Shown in pieces: positions 26,489-32,812 of a stretch of DNA of 64,000 nt. Numbering within the stretch: the stretch's first letter is position 1; each line of letters opens with the position of its first letter. The notes beneath the pieces were generated by a model. That model was not told the origin of the DNA. It saw only the letters and a program-made list of their open reading frames with translations, and searched no databases. The DNA is from Cystobasidium ongulense (taxonomy: Eukaryota; Basidiomycota; Cystobasidiomycetes; Cystobasidiales; Cystobasidiaceae). The position numbers and the translations under genes were made by a program. The stretch spans positions 682,001 to 746,000 of the forward strand of contig BQUP01000001.1 of assembly GCA_022835595.1 (NCBI GenBank), read 5' to 3'.

Positions 26489-28809
26489 ATGGACGTCGAC
26501 CACACCAGCAAAGAGAGCAGCAGCAACACACGCAACGCAAACGACAGCGAGAATGCTTCATCCGGTGCACCTCGCAAGCTCAGCATAGACTGTGAGGACC
26601 GTCACTGCTCATCCTGCCTGCTGCCCTATTCTCCCCAGCTAAACCACTCTCGCAGTGCTCAAGATTGTCCACGCCGCTCGACAAACGTACGGTCTGCGAA
26701 CCAACGACTATGCCCGGTACCACGCACACGCAGCACGCCGAGTAGCTACTCTTCATAGTGCAACGAAAACACTGAACAAGCCTTCTTCGAAAAAGACTGC
26801 CGCTTCTGCTGCTGCGGCGAAAGGAAAGAAGGCAAACAGCAGCAATTCGGCCTATAAATCCGCCAACTATGTATCCACCACCTCGCAGGTCACTGCTGAA
26901 AGCGTCTTGAAAGACGAGCGCCTCCTCGAGCTTCTCGTTTGGGAAACAGAACGTGCCTGGAGTGAGGGAATGAAGCAACGGGAGGAAATAGCCTCCCTCG
27001 AACGCAGCAATACAGCCCAAGCACTCGCGCCGAAACGACACAGAGCCCTCAAGCGCTTCCAAAGAGCCTCGCAGCATGCCCAGAAACTCTCAGATATCGC
27101 TCGGGTGCTCTACAAATCGCCCAATGCTCCCTTCACTGCAGCAGCCGCCTTCCAGATTGAGATCTATCGTCACTACATGGACGGCACGCTGGGTTTCGTC
27201 AAAGCAACCTCTCCCGGAGGATCCTCATCGCAAGCCACTGCCTCTTCTACGCCAACGAGTGCCGCCCTTCTTTCTCTCGGCAGCGCATACGTCCTTCTCA
27301 AAAGCTATGGCCAAGCTACGGCCCATGCTACCGAAGAGGCAATCGCATTCGAGCTGCTCGACGAGCTGGAACCTCTCATTCGCTTCTGCGCCTATAAGAC
27401 TGGATCCTCTCGCGACCGCCTGCCAGCTCAACTAGCAAGAGACGCCGGCAAGGATGCTCTCAGTCTACTAGAGGATGACCAGCACTATCCCAACTTAATT
27501 ACCAAATTAGCCAAAGAAGAAAGCGCAAGCCATAAGAAGAAAGACGGAAAGTCAGCTATAGTGAATCACCTGTCTTGGCGTGACATCGACCTGCCTATAC
27601 GATCCGCTGAGCTTGGAGAGATCTTAGGCCGGGTGAACACTGCAGTAGCCGACATTGCTTCTAAGACGCATTCCAAGACAAGAGACCACGCTGCAGGTAT
27701 ATCGACCTACGAGCGATCTCTTGCAGCGCTCATCGAAGCCGAAGACAGAGCCAGAAAGCTCGTGGACGACAACACTGTTGCCCTTGCCCGAGCACATTCA
27801 GCTCGTTTCGAGGCTGCTGCTAAGCCGCTAAATCTTGTTCACTCCTATATCCTTTTCCACCTACTCTCGATCCGCTTACAGCGAGATGAAGCACTACTGC
27901 AGGCCACCTTAGTGAGACTGGCCAGGCGGGAAGCGAAAGTCAGCAATGAGATCACGACATTTGGAACACTGTCAATGCGCGTCAAGAGAAGACGGATGAA
28001 GCTATACCCAGTCCTTATCAAATTATTGGACGGAATGACACAGTCCTTGGAGAGAACTAGATCACTAACGGTTGTGGAGGAAGACACAACGGACTTAGCC
28101 GAGGAGACCGATGCATTATTAGCGTACTCGAAAGCACGCAGGTCAGTTAAGACCCGACCAAATTTTGCAGGTTTAGCGCTTATTATCTGTCACATCACAC
28201 AGATGCCTGTACCTCGGAGAAACTTATGCGATGCTCGACAAGTACCCGGAGGCTTTGTCTTTGCTGCAGCGGGGAAGCCTTTACGTTCGACAAGCACAGA
28301 CACTAGTTGACGCAGTCGGTACTTCAAAGCTCACCGATGCAGACCTTCCCGCAAGTTTGCAGCCCGTCGAACATGCATCTCAACAAATTCCAGGCCTACA
28401 AAAGTCATTAGAGCGTGCCGAAGCCCGTACAAGCAAAGACTGGCACACCTTTACTCTATCACCTAGCGATACGCAGGGCGGCGCCTCCGCGAAGTCTGCA
28501 CCCTTGGGACTAGCCGTCGAGAACCTTTCGCTACAAAATGCAAAAGCACCGGGGAGACGCAGCACGAAACCCCGCAAGGCCGGCGCACTCTTTTACGATG
28601 TTGCTTTCAGTTACATAGCCCCTGTGGCAACAGATCTGCCGGTCGAATCAGTCACAGACGTCTCTGCAGAGAGTGTTATGACTGTCAATATGCAGGCAAA
28701 CGAGCAATTGGAAGCTATAGGCGACAAGCAAGGCAAAACTTCCGCAAGCAGTTCAGAAGTCCAGCCTGCTGGACGTGGGCTGTGGGGTTTCTTCGGGAGA
28801 CGCAAATAG
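26489..28809 (+). CDS. SRP68: Signal recognition particle subunit SRP68
   Basis: Protein subunit of the cytosolic SRP that forms a heterodimer with SRP72 on the S domain of the SRP RNA. Exon 1 (from ATG 26489, MDVDHTSKESSS) is joined by a phase-1 intron to LLKIVHAARQTYGLRTNDYARYH, the N-terminal tetratricopeptide-like RNA-binding region. ARRVATLHSATKTLN, then LLVWETERAWSEGMKQREE, KRHRALKRFQRASQHAQKL and FCAYKTGSSRDRL (an RYCAY-like motif) follow the SRP68 order. A 3' intron near 28141-28200 joins SKARRCLYLGETYAMLDKYPEAL. The protein ends LWGFFGRRK at 28809. Length, about 705 residues, fits the family. It shares a 234-bp promoter with GET3. Confidence 0.94.
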
Positions 28810-29136
28810 TACAGTTGGAGTAACAATTTCAAGCCATTTTGTCTACCTAAAACTACGCCAACACGCACAGTATCACATTGTTCTATCCACCAAATACCAA
28901 AGGCTAAGATCTATCCTTGCACCTGCTGTGCCACAAAGTGTTTCAGTACCCGCTTGGCTAATCGCTCATAACTCTCCGAGCCAAGCCGCTGATCCCCTTT
29001 TATTTCCAACTCATATACTTTCTGTCCTATAGTAACGGACAGGCGATTCATCCCGCCTATCGCGGAGTCAGACTCAGATTTATGGAACACCGGTTCCGAT
29101 TGCCGGGTTTCTTGGCAATATGCTGATCAAAGACAG
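28810..29136. other. Convergent 3' intergenic region
   Basis: 327 bp between the SRP68 stop and the end of the dsRBD-repeat gene. No gene was seen; 3' UTRs are expected. Confidence 0.4.
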
Positions 29137-32100
29137 TCAGCTACGAAACTGTAAGTCTGCTAGGGCATAACACCCCTCACATTGTAATCGGTGGACGTAA
29201 GACCCCTTCGCCTGTGGTAGCTCGCTGACGACTGGCGTATTCGGTGGAGGAACGTCCACTATCATATCGTCGGATGGCGGCTCCGACAGTGAGGCAGACT
29301 GATGAGCGTTTCTATTGCCCCTGCTACTGACGTGGGGATGAGACGGGCTGCCGTGCGCCTTCAAATAGTCTACGAGACCTTCCTCAATACTCAAAGCGGC
29401 AACGGCTTCCCTGGCTGCAGCTTTGCTGTTGTAGTGGGCTGAGCACATATAGGTCTTTGCTGGCACTGTCGGAATTGTGAGCCTAGCAGCAAATTGAGCT
29501 GAAGAGACTGCATCAGCGGTTGAACTTCCCAGACTAGCATTGATAGCAACTTACGACCATTGCCAGGTTTGAAAACTTCAAAATCAGGCTTGTGGCGAGG
29601 CTCCGTGCCAAGCAAGATCTGGCACATCTGGTGAACATAGCTGACGGGATGATAGGCTCTCGTGCTTGCGGAAGCTTGTAAAATGGGCGCATCTGTCATT
29701 CTAGAAGCCTCGAACTGCTGACTAGCTAGCGATAATTGTTTCCACAGGTCCCCGCTTAACGCTTTGATCGACAGATTCTCTTTTGCCGATGCAACACTAC
29801 CGAGTGCACAGTCACTTTCGAAGACTCGTGCATCGCCATCCTGGAGTTCAAGTCGAAGACTACCACTGTAAAGTCCGCTTCTTTGGTCTTGACGTAGGTG
29901 AAAAGCGATGCGAGAAGCGCCCTCCGCGCCGAAGGCTTCCAAGAAGTGCTGGCGCAATACCTGCAAATTGGGCTGACTGGAGTTATTAGACACGTTCGAT
30001 GGTTGTTGTCCTCCGGAGTTTGAGGTGCTCATAACGCTGGTGCTCGGGGTTGTGGGATAGGCCAAGGAGCCGGCAGAAGGGCCGGCAAGCACTTGTGCTG
30101 GGCTACATTTTACGTACGGAGGCGGCGGTCCAGTATATATGAAATCCTGAGGCTTTGGCACGGGTAGGTCCTGCACACGCATGTTCCTAGGGGCCTGATA
30201 GGATACAGAAGGATGCGGAATGCGTGAGGTTTCTTCCCTAGTATGGTGAGCAGCCATCTCGAAAGTAGCGGCGTTATACGTCGTCGTAATCGCCGCAGCT
30301 GGTGATCCCTTTACTGAGGGTGATACACGGCCGGCAGGTTCGGCCTCGGCGGCGGTGGTAGACTTCGATGCCAGAATCGACTGAACTGCAAGATTGGCTA
30401 CAGCTTCCTTAGCGAGCTTCTTGGAGGGAAACACAGCCTCGGACTCGAAGTTCTGCACTACCTCAGGCTTGAGACGGACTGTCAGGCTGCTGCCGAATCG
30501 CGGAGCTGTGTAAGCTCGTTAGCACAGGATCGAGGATAGTACAACCCCGCTTAAGGTATACTTTGCTTACTCATAGGTTTGCCAAGAATGCTCGCGCCTG
30601 GTCTTTCCGTGAAATCGTAAGATAAACAATCGATACCGCCCGGGGTAGTCTGAGCCCAGACATTAAGACGTGAGATTGCGCTGGTCGACAATCAAGTAAG
30701 CAGAGTGCATTGCCCGAAAATTGGAAAGCAGAATGCCAGAACCCACTTGTCGATTGGAGCGGAGTGTAGCGCAGGACCTGAGGCTCCACTTACAGGCCCG
30801 CCTAATCCGCTAATAGCTTGGTAAGAAGCTTGTACCAGGCTCATCCGGCTCTCAAGGTCTTTTCGGAGACCCATCCTCACTGCCAGTCTACAAACACATT
30901 CTGCATCGGAAAAAGATATTGTCAAATAGATGATCATGAAGGATTCGAACCGGTCAACCGGTCAATGACATGGACTGCTAGCGAAAGCTTAACCATGGCA
31001 TAATCGTGTATCGCGCACCTTTGGCTTCTTTCTTGTTGCGAAACAGCGGAGGCATCTCATAGGTGCGTGTGTCATCACGGCTCAATTGAATAATCACTTT
31101 TGCCCCGTACAGATCACCTGGATGCATTTGGAGAGGGTGTGCTAATCAGATGGAAGGGACATGTGTGCAGAAAATGGATTATCATTACATACCAGTGTCC
31201 GAATGCAGTTCGCTAAAAGTTGCTGAAAGTGCACCAGGGTCGCGTGTAATCTGCTGAACGAGCTGAGAGACCAAACCGGCGGTATTCTCCTCTTCAAATG
31301 TATCGTGGTCCTCCAGGGTTGCGGGAATGGCAGTGCCTAGCTGTCTGCAGATCTTGGTAGTCATGGAATTATGTAGCTTGAAAAGGATAACAACACCTTC
31401 CTGCAAAGCCAGCTGTGCGACTGCCTCTTTGGCAAACCGTGTTGAAGGAAAGGCGTCCGTTGTTGCATATGTCTCATGGACGTCAGGGCTGATTCGTATT
31501 CGAAGTTTGCACCGGTAGATTGCCCCACGCGGACGTCCTGTTTACGCGTAAATCAGTCCAGACCGGCTACATAAAGAAGAGTTTTCAATATGCCTACCTT
31601 CCTGAGCGCCGAGTGTCTGGTGCACAAAATCAAGCACAACATTTGGCACTTCAACACAGTATTTCTAGGGCAAGCAGCAGGCGTTAAAGAAATTTCAAGA
31701 GAGCAGAAAAACCTGATGGCTCACCTGGACAGCAAGATTAAGCAAAGTAACAGGGTTTTGATGATTTGTGACATCGCCCTCAGGAGCGAAGCGCGGATTG
31801 CTCGAGCCATCAAACGGACCAGAAGATGGGCCAGGGAGTTGATAAGGATCGATTGTCTTGTCTAGAAGCGCCATGCTCCGAGCTGCCTCGCCGAGGATAC
31901 CGCACTGCATTGCATATTCAGCCAGCGCGCGAATTGCTTCCCGCTTGCTTGCATAGACCGGCGGAGAGCGAAAGACTCGAGGCTCTTTCTGAGGGAATGG
32001 TAGCTTTAGCGTACAGGCGTAAGACCGGGCTATGGATGGGAATTCCCTGTCAACAACGTCCTGCCGATTTCGATGATAGTGGTCGAGTATAGCACTTACT

Positions 32101-32355
32101 TTTGGGACTTTTGAAGCAATCAAAGGATACTGGCTCTACAGAAACCTTGCGCCAGAACTTGCGGAGATACAGGGCTGGCGATTCGTTTTTCTCGTCCGGA
32201 CCTTCGTCATTGTCTTCAACAGCGTCTCCATACTCGATGAAAGTTTTTTCAAGCTGAGATGGGCTATTCGCTGCGTCGGGCATTCCAGCGAGGGACTGGC
32301 TTCCAAGGCTGTCAAGAGTCATGTGTTCACCGCCGTCATCCTGCACGATGTCCAT
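29137..32355 (-). CDS. Six-module tandem dsRNA-binding-domain-like protein
   Basis: Product of roughly 900 residues composed of six repeats with the dsRBD plan alpha-beta-beta-beta-alpha. First helices include NPVTLLNLAVQKYCVEVPN, NTAGLVSQLVQQITRDP, NLQVLRQHFLEAFG and HPVSYVHQMCQIL. Last helices are ASKREAIRALAEYAM, PSTRFAKEAVAQLAL, RNKKEAKECVCRLAV, PSKKLAKEAVANLAV and NSKAAAREAVAALSI, like the KKxAKxxAA end of dsRBDs. Approximate positions, in protein order: 32180-31870, 31740-31380, 31290-30820, 30760-30370, 29990-29730 and 29650-29340. Five modules carry a phase-1 intron between first helix and first strand. No helicase, nuclease or deaminase domain is seen, so it may be a scaffold or RNA-binding regulator. 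The start at 32355 (MDIVQDDGGEH) and the last codons are tentative; an upstream open frame (32336-32623) overlaps the 5' end. Confidence 0.75.
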
Positions 32356-32812
32356 TGCGGTATCCAGGCTTCTCCAATCCGAGCAGTGTATCTTCGAGCT
32401 CTGCTTTGAGCCGAGGCAGGTGTAGGTGCTTCTTCAAGACACGTGAGCCTTCCAGAAGACCGCGCCGAAGAGCGAGCGAGGTTGAACGCCGCAACGAAGG
32501 CGCAGTCAAGAGAGCCAGCTCTTCAGCATGCAGCCTGTTCGCACGACTCGCTTGACCCGATATCCTCTCGCCTTCCAGTTGGGGCATGGCAGAAGTCCAG
32601 CCGGCGGCAAGCTGCAAGTTCACGTGCGAGTTGGGGTCGGGTGGCGAGAATGTATAACTACAGTTGCCTATATTTGACGTTAGCGAGGCAGTACGTGCGG
32701 ATGTAATACGCTTATAAGCACATGTTACTAAAGCTACCCGCTAAGCCAGTCCTGCACAAGAGAACTGCGGCACTACGAGTCTACAGAGTACTCAAGCACA
32801 ACAAACTGTGCA
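32356..32812. promoter_or_regulatory. Upstream region of the dsRBD-repeat gene
   Basis: 457 bp, including a 96-codon minus-strand open frame that cannot be joined in frame to the gene below. It also contains the SEC20 3' flank. Confidence 0.35.

Follow-up and report, generated by a model that had tools for sequence, protein, structure and literature searches.

The region described here lies on contig C1 of the Cystobasidium ongulense assembly, within a stretch of 64,000 nucleotides that was analysed as a whole and is referred to as the window. On its minus strand, a predicted splice model leads from an ATG at 32355 to a stop codon at 28911 through 10 exons and 9 introns and encodes a protein of 941 residues (approximately 102 kDa, calculated pI 6.6), in which modules related to the dsRNA-binding domain (dsRBD) follow one another, interrupted by a linker that, judged by its composition, is presumably disordered (Table 1). 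The tail-to-tail neighbour on the plus strand (window positions 26643-28310) codes for SRP68, a subunit of the signal recognition particle (Pfam E 1.8e-43 over 500 residues).

Table 1 Coding region, modules and linker of the dsRBD-array gene (window coordinates; aa, residues of the predicted protein)
Feature	Residues	Position	Strand	Evidence and remarks
Whole coding region		28911..32355	-	Spliced model, codon scores
Module 1	60-134	31884..32178	-	Intron 32030-32099, phase 1, beta1-beta2 loop; similar to modules 2-6
Module 2	177-264	31374..31757	-	Intron 31538-31597, phase 1, at loop; intron 31665-31724, phase 0, helix 1
Module 3	294-375	30848..31286	-	Intron 31118-31192, phase 1, loop; intron 30901-31018, phase 1, helix 2; KKEAK
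Module 4	409-493	30363..30748	-	Intron 30506-30570, phase 1, loop; intron 30681-30746, phase 2, start of helix 1; KKLAK
Linker	494-622	29976..30362	-	Rich in Pro/Ser/Ala/Thr, no module
Module 5	623-703	29733..29975	-	No intron; AlphaFold alpha-beta-beta-beta-alpha, pLDDT 86.6
Module 6	731-813	29356..29651	-	Intron 29508-29554, phase 1, loop; weak Dicer_dimer match
Probable module 7	864-941	28914..29205	-	Intron 29123-29180, phase 1, helix 1; splice choice, fold model

The five recurrent introns that the earlier note had placed in modules 1, 2, 3, 4 and 6 fit this model at their coordinates, are all of the GT-AG type and lie in phase 1; each of them would shift the frame or introduce an in-frame stop codon if retained. 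Module 5 is encoded without interruption, as had been proposed, and the four further introns of the model, in modules 2, 3, 4 and 7, lie outside the slot shared by the recurrent ones. Of the three forward frames, the chosen one reaches the highest codon score in every one of the 10 exons. A reverse frame scores marginally higher in exon 3 (0.103 vs. 0.101 per codon) and also in exon 10, the weakest exon (-0.145 vs. -0.186 per codon, stop codon included). An alternative acceptor for the first intron at 32047, which leads to a stop codon within a few codons, was rejected. Upstream, an ATG-initiated open reading frame of 83 codons (32336-32587, minus strand) overlaps the gene's start codon and may represent either an upstream open reading frame or an unrecognised 5' exon; it was left out of the gene model because its codon score is near neutral (0.055 per codon) and no Pfam family matched it at E up to 0.001.

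The 3' end differs from that given in the earlier note, which had let the gene end at 29137. This end is probably wrong, because the unspliced tail has a poor codon score and a splice into a tenth exon adds 70 residues. Among 91 GT-AG choices with intron lengths of 42-149 bases, two lengthen the protein by 60 residues or more, and the acceptor in both cases is 29123; in combination with the donor 29180 (GTGAGG), it defines a phase-1 intron followed by the 70-residue exon 10. The end of exon 9 (SYVHRLQ) resembles the SYVHQMCQ that opens module 6, and together with exon 10 it forms a probable seventh module, which is the least certain among the modules. When the exon-10 sequence alone was modelled with AlphaFold, a strand-strand-strand-helix arrangement was obtained (mean pLDDT 69.8), most of helix 1 being situated outside this construct. 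The best match of the model in the PDB, as determined by Foldseek, was the first dsRBD of HYL1 (probability 0.87); among the matches listed with a probability of at least 0.6, three out of five were entries with dsRBD proteins (HYL1, TRBP, Dicer-2-R2D2) and the other two were RNA 3'-phosphate cyclase, and this search gave no match at E ≤0.001.

Comparison of the modules with each other confirmed the six repeats counted previously as related units, the total probably being seven rather than six. When modules 1 to 6 were aligned pairwise and compared with shuffled controls (400 shuffles each), 14 of the 15 pairs were similar at p <0.05, uncorrected for multiple tests, the exception being modules 5 and 6 (p 0.072). 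The highest scores were obtained for modules 2 and 4 (z 18.6), 3 and 4 (z 14.1), and 2 and 3 (z 10.6). Module 7 is weakly similar to module 4 (z 3.2) and module 6 (z 2.8), with no similarity to modules 1, 2, 3 and 5, and these values lie near the background of the fold, because 2 of 21 pairs formed between the modules and three other dsRBD-fold domains of the genome also exceed z 2.5 (3.1 and 2.7). Paralogues were not found in the genome itself, the nine matches obtained at E up to 10, with the best candidates scored, being without exception exons of the gene.

The dsRBD-like fold claimed in the earlier note is supported by three lines of evidence, namely a comparison of a seven-module profile with PDB sequences, an AlphaFold model of module 5, and the structural neighbours of this model. 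The profile gave three matches at E up to 10 among 177,635 PDB sequences, all of them dsRBDs (an E3 RNA-binding protein with E 0.011 and two constructs of RNA helicase A with E 0.35 and 0.38). A profile of five modules, built without modules 5 and 7, gave three weaker matches (E 0.53-1.8), which were the dsRBDs of DRB4 and PKR and a virus subunit. Module 5, the one encoded without interruption, was chosen for structure prediction and modelled with five aligned exon pieces as a six-row alignment, which was built without module 7 and without the first halves of modules 3 and 6 and whose added rows span almost only the part from strand 2 to helix 2; a nine-row alignment, in which rows of half-modules were misaligned, was discarded. 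AlphaFold returned the alpha-beta-beta-beta-alpha order on which the claim depends, with helices at residues 2-22 and 61-74, strands at 23-29 (beta1), 36-43 (beta2) and 49-53, and a further helix at 77-84. In a Foldseek search of this model, all nine matches with a probability of at least 0.75 among the best 50 of 1,032 were entries containing dsRBD proteins: Loqs (three matches, including dsRBD3), KIAA0890, DHX29 (two matches), which we take to contain a dsRBD, DRB7.2-DRB4, DRB3 and DCL1. The matched chains in large complexes were assigned by length and title, and no match had an E ≤0.001. The other modules probably share the fold, as suggested by their alignment.

Standard sequence profiles detect the modules poorly. 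The Pfam family Dicer_dimer (PF03368) matched module 6 with E 0.00095 in the whole protein and 0.0094 in the module alone (19.6 bits vs. a cut-off of 23.7), DSRM_2 (PF24995) matched module 4 with E 0.0068 and 0.094, respectively (17.3 vs. 27), and no module passed the curated cut-offs. Searched individually, modules 1, 2 and 5 had no Pfam match, and modules 3 and 7 gave weak matches to the unrelated families ADAMTSL1 (E 0.14) and SAP30_Sin3_bdg (E 0.11), respectively. A similar difficulty has been met elsewhere in fungi, where neither a PAZ domain nor a dsRBD was found by HMMER in 1,825 of 2,911 Dicers (PMC12663654). Within the genome of C. ongulense, the dsrm profile PF00035 gave no match at E up to 0.001 and seven at E up to 10, none of which lies in this gene. 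The search with DSRM_2 gave no match and was insensitive, because it missed even module 4 of the gene, and that with Dicer_dimer gave one match, located in a Dicer-like gene on contig C10, and missed module 6, which is split between exons. The whole protein had no phmmer match in the PDB at E up to 10, and an hhalign profile comparison did not link the modules to three dsRBD-fold domains encoded in the same genome (probability 0.4%). Of 1,561 matches in a library of viral folds, none reached E 0.001, and among the best 50 none was named as dsRBD; in viral contigs, four stretches fit a pattern and none was confirmed. Two Pfam families matched the whole protein at E up to 10, in a search whose HMMER filters drop most weak matches, and neither of them is a catalytic domain; in particular, no ADAR deaminase or RNase III domain was present among them. 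This agrees with the original description of the protein as non-catalytic.

The model of module 5 also allowed the recurrent intron to be located with respect to the fold. The position had been described as lying between helix 1 and strand 1, and the model places it in the loop between beta1 and beta2 instead. With a hydrophobic landmark in strand 2 as reference, the phase-1 intron lies 7 codons upstream in modules 1, 3 and 4, 9 codons upstream in module 6, and 11 codons upstream in module 2, offsets that correspond to residue 33, residue 31 and residue 29 (the last one of beta1) of the module 5 model. The extra codons of modules 6 and 2 can be read as inserted residues of the loop, the alignment of this part being too uncertain to establish identity of the sites. 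When nine introns were placed at random, none of 200,000 trials put phase-1 introns into the same 7-codon slot of five of the seven modules; the highest count was three modules when phase 1 was required and four when any phase was allowed. A binomial estimate for five of seven modules is 1.1e-7 with phase 1 required and 2.5e-5 with the phase left free; all these chance figures are optimistic, because the slot was defined after inspection of the data, and the margin is still wide. Taken with the pairwise similarities, the intron register supports the serial duplication of an intron-bearing unit, as advanced in the earlier note, for modules 1 to 4 and 6. The simplest account is that the duplicated unit already carried the intron and that module 5 lost it. 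The other dsRBD-fold stretches of the genome that were examined were matched in uninterrupted frames, which is not a fair comparison, because an exon-by-exon search would miss split ones. Apart from the recurrent slot, modules 2 and 7 each have an intron in helix 1, and as the helices are read here the two sites almost coincide, being about one base apart (phases 0 and 1, respectively); this may reflect sliding or coincidence.

Canonical dsRBDs that bind dsRNA (type A) are characterised by a GPxH motif in the beta1-beta2 loop and a KKxAK motif at the start of helix 2. The GPxH motif is absent from all seven modules and a KKxAK-type start of helix 2 is found in two of them (modules 3 and 4), none of the modules combining the two. 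The KKxAK-type motif is a weak criterion, because it is also absent from both dsRBDs encoded on contig C16 of the same genome, which were taken as canonical and have the GPxH motif. With respect to charge, the calculated pI is about 8 or higher for six of the seven modules, module 1 carrying a net charge near +8, and module 5 is slightly acidic (pI 6.1). The basic modules and the KKxAK motifs of modules 3 and 4 would suit a plain multivalent binder of dsRNA, serving as a sensor or for sequestration, whose modules bind without the textbook motif and owe their affinity to avidity; in line with this, dsRBDs 1 and 2 of mouse Stau2 have been found to bind RNA although they are often classed as pseudo-dsRBDs (PMC6477676). 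However, the GPxH motif is missing throughout and module 5 is acidic, and two of the five dsRBDs of fly Staufen, dsRBD2 and dsRBD5, do not bind RNA, the residues for RNA contact being absent from dsRBD5, which binds the coiled coil of Miranda through its beta-sheet (PMC4600727). We consider such a binder unlikely. The opposite extreme is an adaptor for protein interactions only, for example in a ribosome- or helicase-bound complex, that makes no contact with RNA. It would be in accord with the absence of GPxH and with the chains of two DHX29 complexes among the best structural matches of module 5 (probabilities 1.00 and 0.95), but it leaves the KKxAK motifs retained in modules 3 and 4 unaccounted for, and the basic pI of six of the seven modules does not favour a protein-only role; among the readings considered here it appears the least probable.

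Searches of the genome, which cover 19.77 Mb in 19 contigs, also turned up the machinery of RNA interference. Piwi matches over the cut-off were found at four places and RdRP matches at three, and of four RNase III matches two lie close together on contig C10, adjoining the one Dicer_dimer domain. The fungus thus keeps an RNAi toolkit consisting of Piwi, one Dicer-like gene and RdRP (contigs C6, C1, C10, C7 and C4). Two further loci with dsRBD-like sequence were observed. On contig C16 (47 kb), two dsRBDs with GPGH loops are encoded in one frame (matches at 29475-29630 and 29847-30011; locus L023, 1402-2058), followed downstream by what looks from its sequence like a helicase (to position 2700 of L023), so that this locus is possibly a DHX9-type helicase gene. 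In the region around C1:1180645 (locus L024, 667-2646), a frame of 660 residues contains a weak dsrm match ahead of motifs which we take to be DEAH-helicase-like.

Dicer-partner proteins such as Loqs, TRBP and R2D2 and the plant proteins HYL1 and DRB contain two or three dsRBDs each. Like the protein described here, they are non-catalytic and carry their dsRBDs in tandem, and the models of modules 5 and 7 are similar in fold to Loqs dsRBD3, DRB4/DRB7.2, DRB3 and HYL1. It is conceivable that the gene encodes a cofactor of Dicer or of RNAi akin to TRBP, Loqs or plant DRB proteins with more modules, in which degenerate dsRBDs would attach to the dimerisation domain of Dicer or to further proteins with dsRBDs, and would present dsRNA. 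The same genome has a Dicer_dimer domain close to two RNase III domains as well as Piwi and RdRP matches, which points in this direction, as do the DRB7.2-DRB4 interaction domains and Loqs dsRBD3 among the nearest folds of module 5 and the weak Dicer_dimer match of module 6. Dicer_dimer and DSRM_2 are the best profile matches of the protein, both below the curated cut-offs. Among the Rde factors known from Cryptococcus, Rde3 belongs to the RNase III enzymes and Rde4 is predicted to be a nucleotidyltransferase, and for Rde5 no domain is strongly predicted (PMC6643885). However, an RNAi system in the genome is no evidence that this gene takes part in it, resemblance to the folds of Loqs and DRB proteins is expected for any dsRBD, and the RNAi genes are not neighbours of the array, being located on contigs C10, C6, C7, C4 and C3 or, on C1, about 1 Mb or more away. 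Overall, we judge a cofactor of this kind to be rather improbable, if somewhat less so than the plain dsRNA binder.

Proteins of the Staufen family, which are metazoan, are marked by as many as five dsRBDs, among them degenerate ones of type B, a tubulin-binding region, and a role in RNA localisation. They share with the protein of C. ongulense the non-catalytic array of several dsRBD folds. Some of the Staufen dsRBDs lack RNA-binding residues and are used for protein contacts (PMC4600727; PMC6477676). The fungal array differs by having probably seven modules instead of five and GPxH in none of them, and the comparison is one of possible mode of action. Our preferred reading, to which we attach an evenly balanced confidence, is that the gene encodes a non-catalytic array of serially duplicated dsRBD-fold modules acting as a Staufen-like scaffold of which a minority of the modules touches RNA; a scaffold of this type is proposed because much of the canonical signature for RNA contact is missing from the modules. 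The gene model, the repeats, the intron register and the fold of module 5 were computed, and the RNA contact, the partners and the scaffold role are inferred. The gene would have grown as a unit whose beta1-beta2 loop already contained the phase-1 intron was duplicated serially, and the intron would have been lost from module 5, or moved to another position, in later local events. The product would form an elongated scaffold in which few modules touch structured RNA, the best candidates being the basic module 1 and modules 3 and 4, in which helix 2 is of the KKxAK type; the remaining modules would bind partner proteins via the faces of their dsRBDs, and in this way an RNA-protein assembly could be held together. 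A more specific version, in which a fungal scaffold of seven dsRBDs organises small-RNA or mRNA particles in the manner of Staufen and the intron register records its growth by duplication of the unit, is put forward tentatively and with less confidence.

As a kind, the non-catalytic dsRBD array is known, and we know of no larger one than seven modules. A fungal array with probably seven modules, none of which has the canonical loop, is a variant of which we know no description. A full-text phrase search of the open-licence literature returned no paper on proteins with six or seven dsRBDs, which is weak evidence of absence, and a description of a fungal multi-dsRBD scaffold was not found in this literature as judged by titles and the beginnings of abstracts. 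Diverged dsRBD arrays may be more common in fungi than their annotation indicates, because the cut-offs of standard profiles miss this protein. The common intron slot makes the gene a clear case of domain growth via duplication of an intron-bearing unit, and if the protein serves as a scaffold of ribonucleoprotein particles or of Dicer, RNAi-competent fungi would gain a counterpart to Staufen or to the Dicer partners of animals and plants.
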